Shown here: positions 5,458-30,950 of the stretch, in pieces
Numbering within the stretch: position 1 is the first letter of the stretch
Layout: each line of letters begins with the position of its first letter
Source: Cochliopodium minus
Taxonomy: Eukaryota; Discosea; Himatismenida; Cochliopodiidae
DNA length: 31,261 bases
Reading direction: 5' to 3'
Assembly (NCBI GenBank): GCA_024220525.1
Contig: JAMYWO010000397.1
Location: 1-31,261 of the forward strand
Translations under genes and position numbers: made by a program
The notes under the pieces: model-generated
What the model saw: the letters and a program-made list of their open reading frames with translations, nothing else
What the model was told of the DNA's origin: nothing
The model's database searches: none

Positions 5458-5551
5458 AGTAAAAAAAAAAAAAAAATTGAATTTATTATATTTCATATAA
5501 ATAAAACTACTCATTAAAATAGTATATCCTCTATTGAAATACAATATCGAG

Positions 5552-7563
5552 ATGGGAAATAACTATTCTGAATTGAATATATTGAAGGATCCAAAACTGT
5601 TAAGTGAAAAGGGATTCATTATTTATTCTTCTGACAAAAACAAGAAAAAGGGGAGAATCATCTTTTCTCTCGATGATTTCCCATTGAAAGAAACCTTGTA
5701 TAGTGCTTCAGGAAATAGATTATATAGGCATAATAACCACGTTTTGGAAATAAACGGTTTCAAAAAATTTTTATCTTTATATATCAAATATCTCACAAAA
5801 AAAATTGATAATATGATTATATAAATCACTCAAATTGTTTCAAATTACCTTCTCTTTTCATCTTATTAATTTTTTTTTAGATTGGCATAAAATTTTGATT
5901 CAAAATACGGTAAAATTCACTCCTGCCTTGCCTCAACTCCTCAAAAAACAATATGTCAAGATGCCTTGGGATCTATCTAAAAAATTAACTTTGAAAATAT
6001 TCAGTTATTTCAAGGTCAGAAATTTTGTATCAATATCTAGGTAAAAAAACAAAATATTTGATAAACCAAATATATAATTACAAACAAATAATATTTATGT
6101 GGATAATCTTGCAATAAACCTGTATATTATTAATTATAATGTATATTATTAAAAATTGATTAATTCCCAATCAATAAAAAATTATAATTTTTTTGAGGAA
6201 ATGCAATCATGATTAATCGAATATGTAATCTATATATTAATTATCCATCATAATTTCTTGATTAAATATTTTTTTTTTATTTAATTTATTCAATTTAATT
6301 TATTTATATCAGGGTTTGCAAAGCATTTTATTATATATGTGGCGACTCCAAACGCTGGAAAAAATTATATATTTACACTTTCAACACGATCCCCCTCCTA
6401 AACTCGGAGGTGCAACACAACCACAACAGATTGTCCATCCGCAAGTCCTCTCTCACTCATTCCAAATCCAATTCCATCGAAATCAGTTCTGACAAAGTAA
6501 CCGAGTTCATGAACGATTTGAAATTAAACAACAAAAAAAATAATGAAGAAAATTTAACAAGTAAAAAAAAAATACTTTTAAATTTAAGATTTTTTTGAAC
6601 ATTTTTTTTTTACATTTTTTTTTTTTACAATTTTTTTTTCCATTTTTTTTTTTTTACATTTTTTTTTTTTTTGAAGATTCTGAATTTTCGGAGAATTTCG
6701 ATAATCATTACAAAAGCATTTTCATCGCAAAGTACGTTCAAGTTCGTAATTGGGGTGAATTGATTGATTATGATCCTTTAAAGCAAGAAACCCTCGAATA
6801 TCAAGCACAATCTGTCTACAAATTTGTTTTGGCAGGTAAACTAAATAATATTTTTTTTTTGTTTTATTAAAAATTTTTTTTTTTAGGACCCTCTAACAGT
6901 GGAAAAACTTGTATCACAAATACACTTGGGGTAATAAAATATATTTTTTTATTCTTGATTTATTTTTTTATTTTTCCTCTTTTTCATTTTTCATTATTTT
7001 ATTCATTATTTTTATTTCACATTTTATATTTTTTGTTTATTTTTTTTATAATTTGATTTATCTTTTGATTTATTTTTAAATTTTTATTTATTTTTATTTA
7101 AAAAATTTAGAATTCATGGATACATGGAACAACACCAAGTATTGGATCCACAAGAGTTAACTTTTCTTGCACCTCTGATGATGGAAAGCAAATAATAGTG
7201 AAAGTGGATGACGTGGCAGGAGAAGACAGATACTTGGGATTAGTGGGGACTTACTTCAGAGAATCAGATCTTATCATTTTAGTTTTTGACATCACTGATC
7301 TCTCTTCTTTTGATTCTCTTAAAACCACTTGGTTGCCTTTAGTTCGTCAAGAAGCTTCTGGTACTCCCATTGTTTTGGTTGCCAACAAAATTGATCTTTC
7401 TGAAGAACGTCGTGTTCCTTATCAGACTGTTGTTGAATATGCTCTCAAAGAAAAGTTGCCTTATTTTGAAATCTCTGCCAAGGATATCGTCACCACCAAG
7501 CTTTTCTTAAGAAAGGTCATTGAATACATTAACAAGATCAGACAAACCCAAAAAAAGAATTAA
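5552..7563 (+). CDS. F-box / Ras-Rab-like small GTPase fusion
   Basis: Six exons (5552-5756, 5881-6040, 6313-6560, 6677-6835, 6887-6930, 7111-7563) join with consistent phases to a 422-residue protein. The start at 5552 gives MGNNYS, a match to the N-myristoylation signature (Gly2, Ser6). An F-box follows at about 96-145 (MPWDLSKKLTLKIFSYF, then SISRVCKAFYYICGDSKRWKKLY), the usual Skp1-binding module. A Ser/Asn-rich linker leads to a Ras-superfamily G domain: G1 GPSNSGKT (258-265), G3 DDVAGED (305-311), G4 NKID (364-367), G5 SAK (394-396). The protein ends KIRQTQKKN, with no C-terminal Cys for prenylation. Inference: a GTP-switched, membrane-anchored SCF substrate adaptor. The 5552 exon uses a GTTTCA donor, the least certain junction. 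The domain calls are strong. Confidence 0.85.
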
Positions 7564-9359: not shown

Positions 9360-11988
9360 ATGTTGAATGCAAACAAAATAGAATTGGAAGATATTGATTA
9401 TGAACATGGATTAGAGAGTGTAATTTTTGATTTCCTTTATATCTTTTTTTTTTCATAATATTTGTTTATAATAAAGACTGATTTGATAGGCAAAGGTGGG
9501 GTAATTAAATTTATCAAAAAAAATTAGTTTAATTTGCGATTAAACATTTATTGAAGTTTGGGGAAGTTTATAGGGCAAAATGTAAGGGGAACATAGTTGC
9601 ATTCAAAACACCAAATGATAAAAGAGAGGAAGAAAATCAATTGAAAACATTCTCAAAAGAAATAGAGATCATTTCGAAAATTAATCGTGAAAGAAATTCA
9701 AATTATACAATAGAATTCTTCTAAAACTATTTTTATAAAATTCTATTAGATCCTCACATCGTATTATTCATGGGATACAGTAAAAAAAATCAATTTTAAA
9801 TAGTTTTATTTAGAAGAAAATAAATCTAATTTGGAAAAAATAGGCAATAGCAATAATCAATTGAGCATCGGTCAATATTTTTTAATTGTGAATTTATTTT
9901 CTTTTAAATTCTTTTTATTTAACCAATTTAGTTATGGAATACCTCGAATGTTTTGGCGACGCATTGTTAGATACCGAAAAAAACAAGTTTTCTTTATACG
10001 AGAGAATTGTTTACGCGAATCAAGTAGCAGAGGGGTACTAAAACCTGCTCGTAGTTAAAATAGATTCAATTTTAAATTTTTTTTTTTTTTTTTTCTCAGA
10101 ATGGCATGGCTTCATGGTAAAAAAAAAATTTTTAATTTTCATCTTATAATTTTTTATTTTTTTTTTTTAATCTTTTTATTTTTTATTTTTTTTTTTCTTA
10201 AAAAATAGGAGCAAAGATTGTGCATTGTGATTTGAAACCATCCAACATTTTGTGGGACAGAAACAAAAAATCGATCAAAATAAGTGATTTTGGCCTCGCA
10301 GTTCCAGTAACAAACGTCACTCACACAGGTGGAAGCAAAAATTATATCCCCCCTGAAGTTTTCAAACTCAGAAAAAAATATCTCCAAGAAAAAGATGAAT
10401 CTTATTTGTTTTCTAGGGATGGTAAAAAAAAAAAATCAATAAAATATTATTTAATTTTTTTTTCATCCTAAAAATTTTCTATTGATTTTGTATTTAAAAA
10501 AAAGATATTTTAAATTTTTTTTAATTTTTTTTCATTAGAATTTTGTTTGTTTTCTTAATTTCAATTTTTTTTTAAATAAAATTATAGTATACGCTTATGG
10601 GGTGACAATATTGCAGTTTATTACGAGAGAAAGGCCATTTTTCGAAGAAAGTTTTGAGGACTCCTACGAACTGAAAGAAGCAGTGGTGAATGGAGAAAGA
10701 CCCTTCTTCCCCTTTAACGAGTTCTATTGCCCCACCAGCATCTACCAACTCATACACGAGTGTTGGAATGAGGATCCCTTTCTGCGCCCTTCTTTCGAGG
10801 ACATCTTGGAATCTTTTGTGGATGATTTTTTGGTCGATTCTTCCATTTTTGAATTTAATCAAAATGAAAATAAAAATAAAAAAAATTTTAGAATTAATCA
10901 TCATGATAGTGATGATGATCATCACAATGATAGTGATAGTGATAAAGATGGGAAAAAAAATCTCAATAGATTTATTTCCGATTTGACAAACCCGGAGATC
11001 TATCCTGCTAGACACTTTTGGAAGTTTTACTTTGGGACGAGAAAAGATGATTTCGAAAAATTCTTCAACGATGACAAAAATAGCAATAAAACTAATAGAA
11101 ATAATAATAATAATAAAAATGAGGGTGAGAACGATGGGGAGAAAAAAGCTTTCAGGGTGAGAAAAAGAGATATCAGAAACAATGTTGCTTCTAATCGCTT
11201 TTCTTCTTTGTTGAGTACTGTCCCCCTCGACCAATTTCTCGTTTCTCTCCAAGCTTACTTGAAAGTTTCCAATGATGATCTTCCTTGCCTCTCTCCCATT
11301 GTCAAGTGTTTTCAACTCTTTTAATATAATTTAATTTGTTTTATTCATTTATTATTTTATTTATTTTTATTTATTTTTGTTTATTTTTTGATAATTTTTT
11401 ATTAATTTTTTTTTTTTTAGTTTTATTTTGTAAAAACAACAACGTAACATTGAATGATTTTGGAAATATGATTGGCTTTTTTGTCCCATTGGTAATTTTT
11501 TTTTGATTTTTTTTTTTTCATCAATTTTTAAAAAAATGTCAGGATTCAAAGTGGCTAAAAAAGGGCAAAAAAAGAAATAAATTAACAATTTCATCTTTAT
11601 AATATTTTTTTAACAAAATTCTGTAGTAATCAAAATTTTAAACTCACCTTGGTACTTTGGGAAAATCAGTAGGGAAGAAGCTTTCAATTTTTTGAAAGGA
11701 AAATCAAAAAGAGATTTTTTGCTTAGATTTTCTTCCACAGAAGATTACAACTGGGTTCTCAGTTATGTTCAATCTCAAAATAAAATTTTACATCTGAGAA
11801 TTATTCATAGATATTCTTCCAACACCTTTTCCTTGGAAAGAGACAATGGAGAAAATAACATTGAATTCAAGTCTTTGCATAAATTGGTTGATTATTTCAG
11901 AAAGCACAAGTTTATTTCTAAACCGGTTTCAAATCTTTCCAACCCCTCCTCTTTTTTGTTTGTTGATGATTACTATGATCTGGGGTAA
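9360..11988 (+). CDS. SHK-type protein kinase with C-terminal SH2 domain
   Basis: Twelve exons: 9360-9417, 9490-9500, 9557-9686, 9750-9779, 9814-9870, 9932-10034, 10100-10116, 10209-10421, 10588-11307, 11421-11491, 11543-11564 and 11627-11988. Together they give 597 residues. Kinase landmarks are the Gly-loop KGGFGEVY (21-28), VAFK40, [20 protein letters not shown] (141-148), DFG (162-164), PPE (183-185), [10 protein letters not shown] and [12 protein letters not shown]. The interval has [10 protein letters not shown], and then [13 protein letters not shown] as in SHK proteins. The SH2 domain is [11 protein letters not shown] (486-496) and FLLRFSS (508-514), with phosphotyrosine-binding Arg511. 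The family combines a Ser/Thr or dual-specificity kinase with an SH2 and acts in cortical signalling. Three exons are 11, 17 and 22 nt. The intron after 11564 appears to be GC-AG. A variant last exon, splicing 11984 to 12046-12064, would end in YGSFN. Confidence 0.88.
11565..11626 (+). other. Apparent GC-AG intron in the SHK-kinase gene
   Basis: Exon 10 ends in phase 0 and the SH2 exon must begin in phase 1. The only intermediate exon that fits is 11543-11564, with donor GG|GCAAAA and acceptor CTGTAG. The result reads [20 protein letters not shown], which agrees with the SHK interval before the SH2 domain. No GT donor in the interval gives the right phase. Confidence 0.55.
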
Positions 11989-12064: not shown

Positions 12065-12286
12065 TATTTAACCAAATTAGATGATACACCAAATCTTTTT
12101 TTCACATTAAAATCAGATAATTTATAAATAAAAAATTTTTTTTTTTTGAAAAGATGATCAATCCTGCAATGTTGTTTGATATATTTGTGATTCTTTGAAA
12201 TTGCTAAATTTTCTTTAGATTAAAAAAAAATTAAATTATAAAAAATAAAGTTGATTGTGGCAAAATCAAAGAAAATATTAAAAAAA
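12065..12286. other. Intergenic A/T-rich stretch
   Basis: This is the spacer between the SHK-kinase gene and the ankyrin-RING gene, with A and T homopolymers. I see no gene or structured RNA. An A-run immediately precedes the next start codon. Confidence 0.6.
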
Positions 12287-13105
12287 ATGGAAAATAATGT
12301 CGAGAACGTATTTTCAATAATAGAAGAAGCTGATGAACAAAGATTAATGGCATATTTGAATGAAAATAAAGATGTAGATATAAATATTAAAAATGAAAAT
12401 GGGCAAACTCCTATTTATTACGCTTGTCAATATGACATGCCTTCACTATTGAAAATATTAATAAATAAAGGGGGTGATTCGAATATAGCAGAACCATCTG
12501 GATTTACACCCCTTCATCTCTGCGCTCATTTAGGACTTGAAAATTCTGTAAAATTTTTGATAGAAGAAGGAAAAGCAGATGTAAATAAACCTAATGGACA
12601 AGGAGCAACTGCACTCCATCTTTCAGCGAGTCAAAATCATACAACAGTTGTAGATATCTTAATTAAAGGAAAAGCTAATTTATTATTAAAAGATGAGAAA
12701 GGAAAAACAGCAATTCAATATGCCGAAGCAAATTCTGATTCCTTTAATTTGATCAAATCTGGTTTATTGAAAATGAAAGAAGAAAGATCATTGGAATCTC
12801 TTGGTGGTGAAAAAAATACTATTAATACTCCTCCCCTTTCTAAAAAAAATTTGGAATTGGAAGAAAAAGTACAAAAGGCATTAAAAATTCTTCAAGAAAA
12901 ATTAGTTAAAGAAAAAGAATTAACAGAAAAATTAAGAAAATCCTTGAATATTGCAACCATTTGTCAAAATTGTCACACCAAAAAGAAAGATACTCTCATC
13001 TTCCCATGTTTGCATGTTTCTTGTTGTTCCTCTTGTTCTCAATCTTTGGAGACTTGTATTTCTTGTAATCAATCTATTGAGGGAAAAGTAATCATCAATA
13101 ACTGA
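12287..13105 (+). CDS. Ankyrin-repeat protein with C-terminal RING finger (putative E3 ligase)
   Basis: A single-exon 272-residue protein; the start is the ATG at 12287 after an A-run. Residues ~10-160 hold four ankyrin repeats, clearest in NGQTPIYYACQYDMPSLLK, GFTPLHLCAHLGLENSVKFL, GATALHLSASQNHTTVVDIL and GKTAIQYA. A charged coiled-coil follows (~205-240; LELEEKVQKALKILQEKLVK). The C-terminal RING is CQNC, FPCLH, CCSSC and CISC (~225-265). It is the short C3HC4 type found at the C-termini of IAP, MIB and similar E3 ligases. The likely role is ubiquitin transfer onto targets bound by the ankyrin repeats; the target is unknown. The plan is common in protists and animals. Confidence 0.87.
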   Translation: MENNVENVFSIIEEADEQRLMAYLNENKDVDINIKNENGQTPIYYACQYDMPSLLKILINKGGDSNIAEPSGFTPLHLCAHLGLENSVKFLIEEGKADVNKPNGQGATALHLSASQNHTTVVDILIKGKANLLLKDEKGKTAIQYAEANSDSFNLIKSGLLKMKEERSLESLGGEKNTINTPPLSKKNLELEEKVQKALKILQEKLVKEKELTEKLRKSLNIATICQNCHTKKKDTLIFPCLHVSCCSSCSQSLETCISCNQSIEGKVIINN

Positions 13106-19971: not shown

Positions 19972-22900
19972 ATGATGAACACTTCTCAACATAGATATGC
20001 AGAAAAATTGGTTACCTTGCAAGGTGTGGGCTATGAATTACTTGATCGTCTCCATAGAACATATTCAGTATTAAACTCATCTAGAGCTTCATTTTTGAAT
20101 GATACAAATAATAAAAAATTATTATCAGCTTTGATGAACAAATTCCCTGAATTACCAAAAGATCCAACAATTGTAAGATATATTTTTTTTATATATTCAT
20201 CATTATATTTTTTGAATTACTTTGATTTGAATAAAATTAGATTCAAGGTTATAATGAGCAAATCGTGGGAAAATCTTCCAAATTGCATGAAGAATTATAT
20301 ATACATTATTATACTTTTGTGGATTTAGAAGAATGGAAAGTGGAAGCACTCAGCACATTGAATGATGTGGCAAAAAATACATCAAGTATAAAAGTAAAAA
20401 CACCTCAATTTAAATAAATACAGAAAAGAAAAAAATTTTATTTTATATATAATCACAAATATTTTTTTTTCTAGTACGATTTGAATCCCACCCTCACATC
20501 CTATTTTCTTGAAGTATTAACACTCTTTATGAAATTGCATATACTCTTAAATAGTATTCCTGAAAGCAAAACCGTATTGGCAATCTACTCTAGAGTATAT
20601 TATCACATGAAGATGAATGAAGAGCCTTCTTACCAAAAAGTTGCGACTTATTTGAATGAATATATGAATAATTTTTTTAAAGTGTTTATTTCTGAATTCA
20701 AAGGAATTGGAAAGAAAATTGCAGAAACACTAACCTCCTTATTCATGCCTTATGTGGAAAATTTGGAAGTTTCTTCAATGAGAGGAAACGGAATTCATAC
20801 TATTATTAATGATCCTAAAAAGGTTACTTTGCCTTCTGATAGTTTGGTAATTATTTTTTTTTTTTGACAAAAAATTTATATTCTTTATTTCTTAAATCAA
20901 ATATCTCATCAAATATTTAAATAATTAATTTCTAGAAACATTATAATCTCATCTATTCTGAGAAAATGTATAATTGGCTTGCATTTGGTCTTTTGACTTG
21001 TCCAGAGAGTTATCACGAAGTTAATATGGATTTGCTTCATACTGTCCTTAAACAAGGTTTTCTTGTTCATGTTCATGGATCATTCAATGTTCATATACAT
21101 CCTCTCTACGATTCCATGTTGAAAACATATAAACCAAGCAAAAAATCACAAATCCCAAAAGAAGTTATGAAATTGCTCAATAAAGCTCTCAAGAATGCCA
21201 AAAAGATTGTTCCTGAATCTGAAAAAGAAGCTGTAGCTCTTCATGGTCCTAAATTTCACAAAGATAGAAGAACTTATCTCCGCCAACAACTCAGCGAGTT
21301 ATATCACATTTTTGGAGATAAACCAGGACTATTGGGACCAAAAATTACTGTAATTTTAAATTAACCTTTTTATTTCATCCAAAAAATTTATAATTTAATT
21401 TAGTTATTGATGTCTGGTATAGTTTTGGCAAGAAATGAGATTGTTTGGTATTTTACACACCGCGGTACTGAACCTAGAAACAGTTCAAAATTATACAGAG
21501 AAAAATATGATGAATATTGTGATGACAAAATCACCGATCTCATCTTCATCACTGATGGATTGATTGATTTGATCAAACAACATAAGGATGTGATTTCCAC
21601 TTATTATCAGGAATTCATTCGTGGTCTTGATTATATCCTTTGTAGGGAACAATCCGAAAAAATACAACAAGGAATTGCCGATAGATTGATCCAATCAATT
21701 TTGGAAGAAGCAACCAGTGTGACACCAGGACAAACTCATGATTTCAAAGCATTTCGTATGAATTGGTTGAGAGTAGAATCCACTCTTTCTTCTGCCTCCA
21801 GTGTAGTTTTCATCAACACTGTTGTCGGTTTTGTCAATCGTTTTACCACGATCACCCGCCACAGTTATTATGCAGACAATTTATTGGATATGATTGATGA
21901 ATATGCCAATTGGAGACCTTTGTGGTATCAATACAAATTAATTGAAGATGAATTCACCAAATCAATCAACCCCAGATTTGATTCTCTTCCTGGACTCCAA
22001 CCTTCTAGGAGCATCGTTTACATTAAACTTTGCAAATATTGGAGTGATAGTGTAAGTTCTTCAACACCAGAACTAAAGCCACAAATAGGAGGATTATGTG
22101 TAGAATTTGCAAAAGATATGTTGGGCAAAATAACCTCCAAAGTCATCAACGAATTGTTGGAAATTGCAAACACTTTTGAAAGCTTTGATGAACAATTGAA
22201 CGATAGAAATGCTTGCTTCCCTCAATTAAAGAGTATGAAACAATATAAACCTCAAAAAGGTAACATCGAGCCCACCCAACCTGGTTTGGAGAGTGAATTT
22301 TCAAATTCTTTGAGACTTGGAAAGTTGAAAGAAAAAGAGAGCGTCACCTTTCAACTCTGCAGTTCATTGAATCAAATCACCACCATCTCCATCTACGATA
22401 CTCTCTTTACTCCTAGAGAATTTTTGAGAGAAGCCATCTTGGAAACCTTTAGCCAATTTTTGACAAGATTGGGAGGAAGCATCAACGAAGTCGAAATCTT
22501 GAGACCTTCGGCCATCGAAAAGAGGATTGGCTCTTTCTGCCACGTCTTTCAATTGATTGAAAATTATTTGGATATCGATATTTCCAACATTTATCGTGAG
22601 GTTTTTGTCAGAAATATCTGGTATTTGCAAACAGGAGAGATCATCAAACTTGAAAATGCAGAAGATTTGTTGTCCATTCAAGACTTGAAGGATGTAGACA
22701 CCAAAAGTTTGTTCAAACCTCTCATCTTGTTCTACAGAAACTTTGCCACTCAAAGACTTGCGGCAACAGGGATAGTATGGGCACCTGTTCGCCAATCTTT
22801 TGTCTCAACCAAAGAAATGAAAGGCACCTCTCCTGCTGAAGATTTTGCAGATATCACCGAATTGGAATGCTTTTGTAGAATACTTGGTCCTTATGGTGTA

Positions 22901-23797
22901 AAACTTTTAGACAGAGAAATCTTGAAGCACGTCGCAAAAGAGTATATCCCTCTCATCCTCACCGGTATCGGAAACAATCAAAAAGCATGTGAACAACTCA
23001 ATGATTCTTACTACAGTGATAATGTCTTTGAAGTGTTGAAGCAATTTAGAGATCTTGATCCTTTCATTTCAATCTCTTCTGCTCTTGGTCTCACCCTTCA
23101 ATTCAGAGAACTCCTTTATCAAGCTCTCGGAAATGTAGTAAGAGAAAAAGCATACTACTTTTACGATGTCACACACTCCACTCTCAACCAATACACCAGA
23201 AACACTTTTATGGTTCCTGATTACATGTCCATCGATTTGATTGCAAAATATGCGGGGATAGATGTGGGAACTGCTGATCAAATGTTGAAATCCTACATTG
23301 GTGCTGCTATCAAGAAAGATAACAATGGTACTGTTCTTGCTTCCCAATTACCAACCATTTTTGCTGCTTCTTTTGCTACCAAATTTTGGGGAGAAGCCAC
23401 CAAATTGTACAGAGCAAACGTTGAAGCTTTTCAAAATAATGCTCATGTTTTGACCACCACCATCAATTCTCTCATTCTATCTTTTAAAGCTACCACCACC
23501 ACCAACGAAAATCTTCAAGAGATAATCAATCTTCTTTCTCATTTCATTGAAGTTTCTTCAAATATCCTCTTAAAATTAATCAAATTAGGAAACAAAACTT
23601 ATCCAAAAGTATTTGGGACAAATGTCAGTGACTTGAATCCTATTTTCATGTTCCTAGATAACTTTGTTGAACAATCTCCTTTTTTGACTGTAGATCATCT
23701 TGAAAATTGCTTACCTTTCGTCCTCTTGCGTTCTATGTACAAACAAATTTATGACCTCAAATTATCAAAAAAGAATGTTGATCTTGATGATTTATAA
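19972..23797 (+). CDS. nap1: Nap1/HEM-family subunit of the SCAR/WAVE complex
   Basis: Five exons, 19972-20172, 20241-20393, 20475-20846, 20936-21349 and 21404-23797, all phase 0, give 1,177 residues, close to animal NCKAP1 and amoebal Nap1. Family landmarks are, at the N-terminus, AEKLVTLQGVGYELLDRLH; in the middle, EKMYNWLAFGLLTCP; then RRTYLRQQLSELYHIFGDKP, GLLGPKIT|LLMSGIVLARNEIVWYF across the last splice, DTLFTPREFL, DITELECFCRILGPYGVKLL, and near the end QSPFLTVDHLENCLPFVLLR. Nap1 pairs with Pir121/Sra1 to hold the SCAR/WAVE complex, coupling Rac to Arp2/3 actin assembly at the leading edge. Introns are confined to the first third; all are GTAA..YTAG or similar and 54-89 bp. The assignment is secure. 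Confidence 0.95.
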
Positions 23798-29304: not shown

Positions 29305-30200
29305 ATGAGAAGGTAAAACAAAGCCATTTCAAAACAATTTTTATTCTAATATTCCTTTACTATTAGATTCTTTAGCGAAAAAAAGACTCAACCAAAAGAA
29401 CAACCAATCAAAAAACCTCCCACAGGCGTAAATATTAAAATTTTTTATCCATATATCTTTATATTTTAAATGATCTATAGCCAATAGGTCCACCAGATAA
29501 AGATTATATAAATTTGATTCTGGAAAATAAATATTTGAACATGATATTTTCAAGATTGGATATTAAGAGCATTTACAGTTGTTTGATGGTATGCAAAAGA
29601 TGGGAAGGTGTGGTGAATGAAGAAGATTCACACCCAAGAGTGATTAATTTCCATTCTTTTCAAAATTTGAGATCAGCACAAATAGCCACCCAAATTTTGG
29701 AAAAGAGAGGGAAAAGAGCAGAGAAGATTAATTTTGGGAGATTGAAATTTACAGAAGAATATTCATTGATTTCAATCATTAAACTTTTACCCAAAGACAA
29801 AATTCAAAAACTAGATGTTTCTGCAATTGGTACCAAAAAATTTTTGACAGACGAGTGCATTAGAGAAATTGCTTCTTCTTTTCCGAATCTGATCAGTCTT
29901 AATTTGTTTGGTTGTTGGATGATTTCTGATTCTTCTCTTTTGGAACTTGGAAACTTGAATTTAAAGAAATTAAACCTGGGTTCTTGTCATAAAATCACAG
30001 ATAATGGTATTTCCAACATTTCGAATTGCAGAGGTTTGGAGAAACTAAATTTGTGGAGATGCAAGTTATTAACTGATAAGAGTTTAGAAAAATTGGGAAA
30101 TGAATGTAAAAAAATCAAAATATTGACCATCAGTGATTGTGAATTTTTGACAAACAATGGAATTGAAGTTTTTCAATCCAATTGTAAAATTTATTTTTGA
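29305..30200 (+). CDS. F-box / leucine-rich-repeat protein (FBXL type)
   Basis: Three exons, 29305-29312 (8 nt), 29367-29427 and 29481-30200, give 262 residues. The N-terminus is basic and Pro-rich (QPIKKPPTGPIGPP). The F-box is NLILENKYLNMIFSRLDIKS then IYSCLMVCKRWEGVV, the usual Skp1-binding fold. From ~residue 130 there are four to five Cys-containing LRRs of the SKP2/FBXL type: NLISLNLFGCWMISDSSL, LKKLNLGSCHKITDNGI, LEKLNLWRCKLLTDKSL, IKILTISDCEFLTNNGIEVF. It is probably an SCF substrate receptor. The LRR run stops abruptly at SNCKIYF, so a further unrecognised 3' exon may exist. The 8-nt first exon is an inference from phase and from the gap it closes. Confidence 0.78.
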
Positions 30201-30305: not shown

Positions 30306-30929
30306 TTATTTGATCAAAGAACCCTTTCTTTCTTTCTTCTTTGAAAAAATTCTCTTTCTTTCAAGTTCAACATTATTTTGAAATTCGAGGAGATTCCCGT
30401 TTTTATCAGCCCAGTCTTTTGGAAGAAAAACATTGGCAGCAAATTTGTCAGTCAAAATTCCCATCTTTTGGTAAGCTGCTGCAACTAATTCAGAACAAAA
30501 AACACTGGAAAGGTTTTCATTATTATCACCTTTGTTTGTTTTATCTTTTTTTATGACTGCACCAATTATCTCTGACAAATCTTTTTTAAAGGGCCTTCCT
30601 CTCATTTGTTCGACAAATTCGTTGACATTTTTCAACATTTCTTTTGATCTGTCCAAATTTTTGAGTCTTCTTATCGCTATTTTGTTGTCTGTATGTAAAA
30701 ATTCTAAACGAGAACCCAATTTGTAAAGACCCACCCCGTTTGATGTTGCTTCAAAAAGCTTTAAAGAGCTATTCGTCCATCTTATAATGAACGCCACGTG
30801 ATCCCATTGTGACATTGTAAATATTTTTGTACCATACGATGCCAAATGTTTTGAGTGAAACAAAACTATATCTCCTGTGTCTGCTCTTATTGGTAATGTT
30901 TCACAAGGCACTCCCATGCTTTTCAACAT
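30306..30929 (-). CDS. Permuted papain-like hydrolase, YiiX/NlpC-P60 type
   Basis: A single-exon 207-residue protein. The first in-frame ATG after an upstream stop is at 30929. It has the circularly permuted NlpC/P60 order with His before Cys: ADTGDIVLFHS (17-26), QWDHVAFIIR with His44, then FEATSNGVGLY, and finally SSVFCSELVAAAYQKMGIL with Cys145. This is the YiiX/YebB/LRAT-like group of cysteine hydrolases, acting on amide or ester bonds of peptides, peptidoglycan or lipids. A basic Lys-rich segment (~100-135) and tail (KRIFSKKKERK) may bind membranes. No signal peptide is seen. It is convergent with the F-box/LRR gene (105 bp). The substrate is unknown, and eukaryotic members are poorly studied. 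Confidence 0.78.
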   Translation of the reverse strand: MLKSMGVPCETLPIRADTGDIVLFHSKHLASYGTKIFTMSQWDHVAFIIRWTNSSLKLFEATSNGVGLYKLGSRLEFLHTDNKIAIRRLKNLDRSKEMLKNVNEFVEQMRGRPFKKDLSEIIGAVIKKDKTNKGDNNENLSSVFCSELVAAAYQKMGILTDKFAANVFLPKDWADKNGNLLEFQNNVELERKRIFSKKKERKGSLIK

Positions 30930-30950
30930 CGAATTCTTTTAAATATTATT

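Follow-up and report, generated by a model that had tools for sequence, protein, structure and literature searches.

The pairing of an F-box with a small GTPase is already known from a few other microbes, and it is its repeated occurrence within one genome, that of Cochliopodium minus, that is new and forms the main interest of this analysis; the fusion seems to have arisen several separate times in this genome. The example from which we started lies at positions 5552-7563 of the window (the whole stretch of DNA analyzed, 31,261 nucleotides), where a single six-exon gene encoding an F-box/small-GTPase protein is the best model and is well supported by the sequence. The spliced exons amount to 1269 nt and translate into 422 amino acids with zero internal stops. 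The five introns that the earlier note had placed here are all GT...AG and leave a joined frame of 422 codons. The features of the gene, in order, are:

5552..5756, plus strand: exon 1, start MGNNYS, where a possible N-myristoylation motif spans 5552-5569; no Pfam match in residues 1-95
5881..6040, plus strand: exon 2, N-terminal part of the F-box, beginning about 5970
6313..6560, plus strand: exon 3, remainder of the F-box to about 6373, then linker
6561..6676, plus strand: intron 3, 116 nt, 10.3% GC, GT-AG, connecting the F-box part with the G-domain part
6677..6835, plus strand: exon 4, linker and β strand 1 of the G domain (VYKFVLA); its frame is open from 6565 without an ATG
6887..6930, plus strand: exon 5, P-loop GPSNSGKT; intron 4 splits the codon of the first Gly
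7111..7563, plus strand: exon 6, remaining G domain, then the stop; the C-terminus, RQTQKKN, has no Cys
7207..7227, plus strand: G3 motif DDVAGED, with Glu at the place of Gln61
7384..7395, plus strand: G4 motif NKID, from the sequence
7474..7482, plus strand: G5 motif SAK, from the sequence

The introns are 8-17% GC versus 30-41% in the exons, and the stretches fetched from this genome average 25.7% GC over 166 kb. Because splice donors vary beyond GT, the exact intron boundaries are uncertain, and the same holds for the exact linker, since 21 stop-free in-frame GT-AG joins exist there, the chosen join among them, when donors at 6400-6596 and introns of at least 30 nt are considered. The donors of all 21 joins lie 3' of the F-box and the P-loop exon comes after them; with two of them (acceptor 6835), exon 4 would be lost together with the first G-domain strand. 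No close paralogue of the window protein was found in its own genome, where the next best match reaches 28% identity, and no relative was present in the viral contigs scanned, which leaves conservation no guide to the linker.

Other genes were also recognized in the window. The end of a kinase domain (32.5 bits) followed by an SH2 domain (42.2 bits) in a later frame occupies 10539-11988, an arrangement like that of the SH2 kinases known from social amoebae. At 12242-13105 a run of ankyrin repeats is accompanied by a C-terminal match to the RING finger, and Nck-associated protein 1, a subunit of the WAVE complex, lies at 21404-23797 (499 bits). A second F-box frame, here with leucine-rich repeats, lies at 29481-30200, and a permuted papain-like amidase (Peptidase_C92, 35.9 bits) at 30306-30938 on the minus strand.

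In the spliced window protein, the Pfam F-box-like profile matched residues 104-142 (30.8 bits, cut-off 24.3) and the F-box model residues 99-139 (24.3 bits, cut-off 20.5), and the Ras profile matched residues 253-412 (97.3 bits, cut-off 21.6), covering profile positions 1-160 of 162. With G1 (GPSNSGKT), G3, G4 and G5 all present and every match above its cut-off, the proposal of the earlier note that an F-box and a complete G domain share one spliced protein is borne out. No Pfam match was obtained to residues 1-95, nor to a BTB domain anywhere in the protein. The G domain scores higher with the Ras profile (97 bits) than with Arf (41 bits), its closest solved structures are those of Ypt1, Rab30 and Rab1 (best E 5e-20), and Rab1A is the nearest of the few reference sequences compared, at 29-30% identity. 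An ungapped reading of the structure alignment places Ser at the Mg-binding Thr position of switch I, with Thr next to it, and D replaces the W of the WDTAG motif. Given the doubtful conservation of this Thr in switch I and the change of the W, effector binding by the G domain may be unusual.

The two ends of the protein were likewise as the earlier note had described them. The only cysteines among the 422 residues are at positions 124, 131, 266 and 292, so none follows 292 and the C-terminal prenylation cysteines of the Rab type are absent. The start MGNNYS, which is the first ATG 3' of an in-frame stop at 5498, fits MGxxx[ST], the N-myristoylation consensus, a motif that is short and common. 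The genome holds four matches to the N-myristoyltransferase profile PF02799 and six to the Skp1 profile PF01466, both counted by exon. The note had further held that Glu at the place of Gln61 could slow hydrolysis; work on Ras points the opposite way, the Gln61-to-Glu change (Q61E) being described as raising intrinsic GTPase activity (PMC10515638, PMC2987813).

Two profiles each for the F-box and the GTPase were run against the assembly (44.65 Mb, 598 contigs), and for each profile the best 150 of 469 to 771 candidates were scored, so that the tally of fusions is a lower bound. At least 191 F-box places and at least 215 GTPase places were found; the window F-box was entered by hand, as intron 2 splits it and the genome-wide searches did not recover it, the domain being visible in the spliced protein only. 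In at least five cases, at four loci (two at C11 and one each at C114, C384 and the window), an F-box is followed within 1500 bases by a GTPase on the same strand, and the number expected by chance is about 0.7 (hand arithmetic from the 191 and 215 places). At least four same-strand pairs in the reverse order were also found, inside the C11 and C114 arrays and at C134 and C307. Because motifs are interrupted by introns, a motif scan that covered 48 of the 149 F-box places from the first F-box search overlooked C384 and did not reveal a P-loop on C11. Besides the window gene, the fusion loci are:

C11:121500-131400, minus strand: tandem array of five F-box/Rac-like genes with the C-terminal ends CNLF, CIFF, CTLF, CFLF and CILF in their open frames
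C384:13500-18000, minus strand: Kelch/F-box/Ras gene ending CLLM, from Pfam and open frames
C114:72000-80000: F-box/Rab-like copies, from profile matches and open frames

In the C11 array, copy 5 is complete at 320 aa, with an F-box of 34.5 bits, a Ras match of 151 bits and the end CILF, and it retains GDQGVGKT, DTAGQ and TKTD. The F-box and G domain of copy 1 join in frame, and copies 2 to 4 were assigned from open frames only; the switch regions are altered in some genes of the array. When the C11 fusion protein was used as query, arrays of Rac-like exons were also seen at C187:25669-57796 and C137:19652-35315. A sixth F-box/Rac fusion is likely at C224, where seven frame-keeping joins were enumerated, three of them stop-free, and one of these (a 49-nt intron) retains the KRYIE-PN stretch common to C11. 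A first reading, which saw no in-frame intron there, had taken C224 as separate F-box and Rac genes and was set aside once the enumeration gave stop-free joins; the locus also admits a two-gene reading, with stop and ATG 34 nt apart.

The C384 gene carries the end of its Kelch region, its F-box and its first G-domain strand in one unspliced open frame. Kelch repeats are often substrate-binding. The C384 F-box passes one Pfam model (22.9 bits, cut-off 20.5) and falls below the other (13.2 bits, cut-off 24.3). On C114, copy 1 has a broken P-loop, GDRNVGGT, without the P-loop lysine, and copy 2 is interrupted by an N in the assembly and ends in a hydrophobic tail that may be a membrane anchor. 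At C134, a Ras frame closed by a stop of its own precedes an F-box frame that has a separate ATG, and judged from these frames the two are neighbors and separate genes. A GTPase match followed on the same strand by an F-box match 1.5 kb on was noted at C307:24256-26156. Enolase exons of the genome, once joined, matched gamma-enolases first among solved structures, with alpha-enolases also in the top ten, a result that carries no information on taxonomic position.

A 21-row maximum-likelihood tree without ARF1 was used to examine the origins of the G domains. In this tree the G domain of C11 copy 5 groups with Rac1 (100/100), that of C384 with Ras (98/95), and those of the window and C114 copy 1 fall on the Rab side (97/94). 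Constraining the four fusion G domains to one clade was 82.5 log units worse and was rejected (p-AU 2.9e-57), which points to at least three separate F-box/GTPase fusions in the genome; the three label changes on the tree could also be read as one gain and two losses. The branches of the window (2.71), C114 and C384 domains are long, and in a 26-row tree with ARF1 the window domain stood beside ARF1 with weak values (38/45), a placement flagged as long branches meeting.

Several known systems invite comparison. TRIM23 is a RING-type ligase with an ARF domain. As predicted for the window protein, it combines a GTPase domain and ubiquitin-ligase function in one chain (TRIM23 being named in PMC8358228). 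The earlier note had known of no described family of this kind, a view that does not stand against two in print, TbFRP (PMC3593210) and the ARF-family F-box fusions (PMC8358228). TbFRP, from Euglenozoa, is described as having the order FYVE, F-box and Ras-like GTPase, the last placed by its authors nearest to Rab18/Ypt6, and as lacking a CAAX; its turnover is fast, possibly through the F-box, and its authors report no orthologue in Naegleria gruberi (PMC3593210). Like the window protein, it places the F-box centrally and the Rab-like GTPase at the C-terminus, lacks a CAAX and has a membrane signal at the N-terminus, putative in our case (PMC3593210). The two differ in that TbFRP has a FYVE domain whereas the window protein has none (its residues 1-95 are without Pfam match and no Cys precedes 124) and starts instead with the MGxxxS motif, and in that the TbFRP G domain is nearest to Rab18/Ypt6 whereas the window domain is nearest to Rab1A among few references (PMC3593210). 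GTPases of the ARF family fused to an F-box or BTB are reported as lineage-specific, and as Ras-superfamily small GTPases joined to an F-box in a lineage-specific innovation they resemble the window gene; in them, however, the GTPase is an ARF, whereas the window domain favors the Ras profile over Arf, 97 bits to 41 (PMC8358228). RhoBTB likewise unites a small GTPase and a cullin adaptor in one chain, but there a Rho-type GTPase is followed by two BTB domains for Cul3, whereas the window protein has the F-box (Skp1/Cul1) first and the Rab-like GTPase last (PMC4931677).

Across the open-access literature, which includes few subscription journals, a search for F-box paired with GTPase, Ras, Rab or Rho returned the TbFRP paper only (PMC3593210). 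No breadth of fusions like that of this genome came up in the searches of this literature; supplements could hold such an account, for instance the small-GTPase supplement of the Naegleria fowleri genome paper, whose references include reviews on the F-box and BTB (PMC8296547). The term F-box is absent from the main text of the Acanthamoeba and Dictyostelium purpureum genome papers.

As to function, we tentatively favor, with a confidence that stops somewhat short of even, a membrane-bound SCF receptor, its gene being one of several F-box/small-GTPase fusions in the genome. The F-box would dock on Skp1/Cul1, membrane attachment would come from an N-terminal myristate rather than a C-terminal prenyl group, and partner binding within the SCF ligase would fall to the G domain, whose nucleotide state would govern the recruitment of effectors or regulators. 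On this reading the SCF activity of the window protein may be GTP-controlled. A competing account, which we consider rather unlikely, keeps the fused gene and has the F-box destroy its own protein, Skp1/Cul1 bringing about rapid turnover of a membrane GTPase with no other substrate. It draws on TbFRP, which is rapidly proteolysed with the GTPase released, possibly in connection with the F-box according to its authors (PMC3593210), and on the autoubiquitination of RhoBTB as a proposed parallel (PMC4931677); self and trans ubiquitination cannot, however, be separated by sequence, and the C384 gene has Kelch repeats besides its GTPase.

The G domain might instead have ceased to cycle and be a plain protein-binding scaffold in an ordinary F-box protein, an idea we hold to be improbable. 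The long window branch (2.71), the alteration of WDTAGQ to DDVAGE, the uncertain switch I Thr and the broken P-loop of the sister fusion C114 copy 1 (GDRNVGGT) speak for it, whereas the window protein keeps GKT in the P-loop, NKID and SAK intact, the Q61E change in Ras raises intrinsic GTPase activity (PMC10515638, PMC2987813), and the sister C11 copy 5 retains GDQGVGKT, DTAGQ and TKTD. That the locus holds two adjacent, separate genes, one F-box and one Rab-like, is very improbable. The unspliced F-box frame does stop at 6596-6598, 35 nt inside intron 3, and the same genome has neighboring but separate Ras and F-box genes at C134. Against this, the nearest stop upstream in the G-domain frame is at 6562, with zero ATGs from there to the P-loop, and of the four ATGs in 6300-6900 the chosen splice brings only 6509 into the G-domain frame, this sole start lying inside the F-box reading frame. 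The one-gene model also draws on the GC contrast between the introns, intron 3 included (10.3%), and the exons (30-41%). Other F-box/GTPase fusions also occur in the genome, with the F-box and first strand of C384 in one unspliced frame.

The finding of several fusions with Rac-, Ras- and Rab-like G domains suggests that linking SCF to GTPase-marked membranes has repeatedly been useful to the organism. A wider proposition, which we regard as doubtful, is that the organism has placed Rac, Ras and Rab-like switches on SCF ligases at least three times, with differing anchors (a CAAX, possibly a hydrophobic tail, possibly a myristate), and that these proteins would stand as a counterpart to RhoBTB/Cul3, a class of SCF receptors gated by GTP and restricted to membranes. 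If GTP loading sets the degradation targets of the SCF ligase for each membrane, one chain would join two main control systems of the cell. If true, the repeated fusion with Rac, Ras and Rab-like partners in one genome would amount to a natural experiment by which the idea could be tested, and the euglenozoan TbFRP would be no lone oddity.
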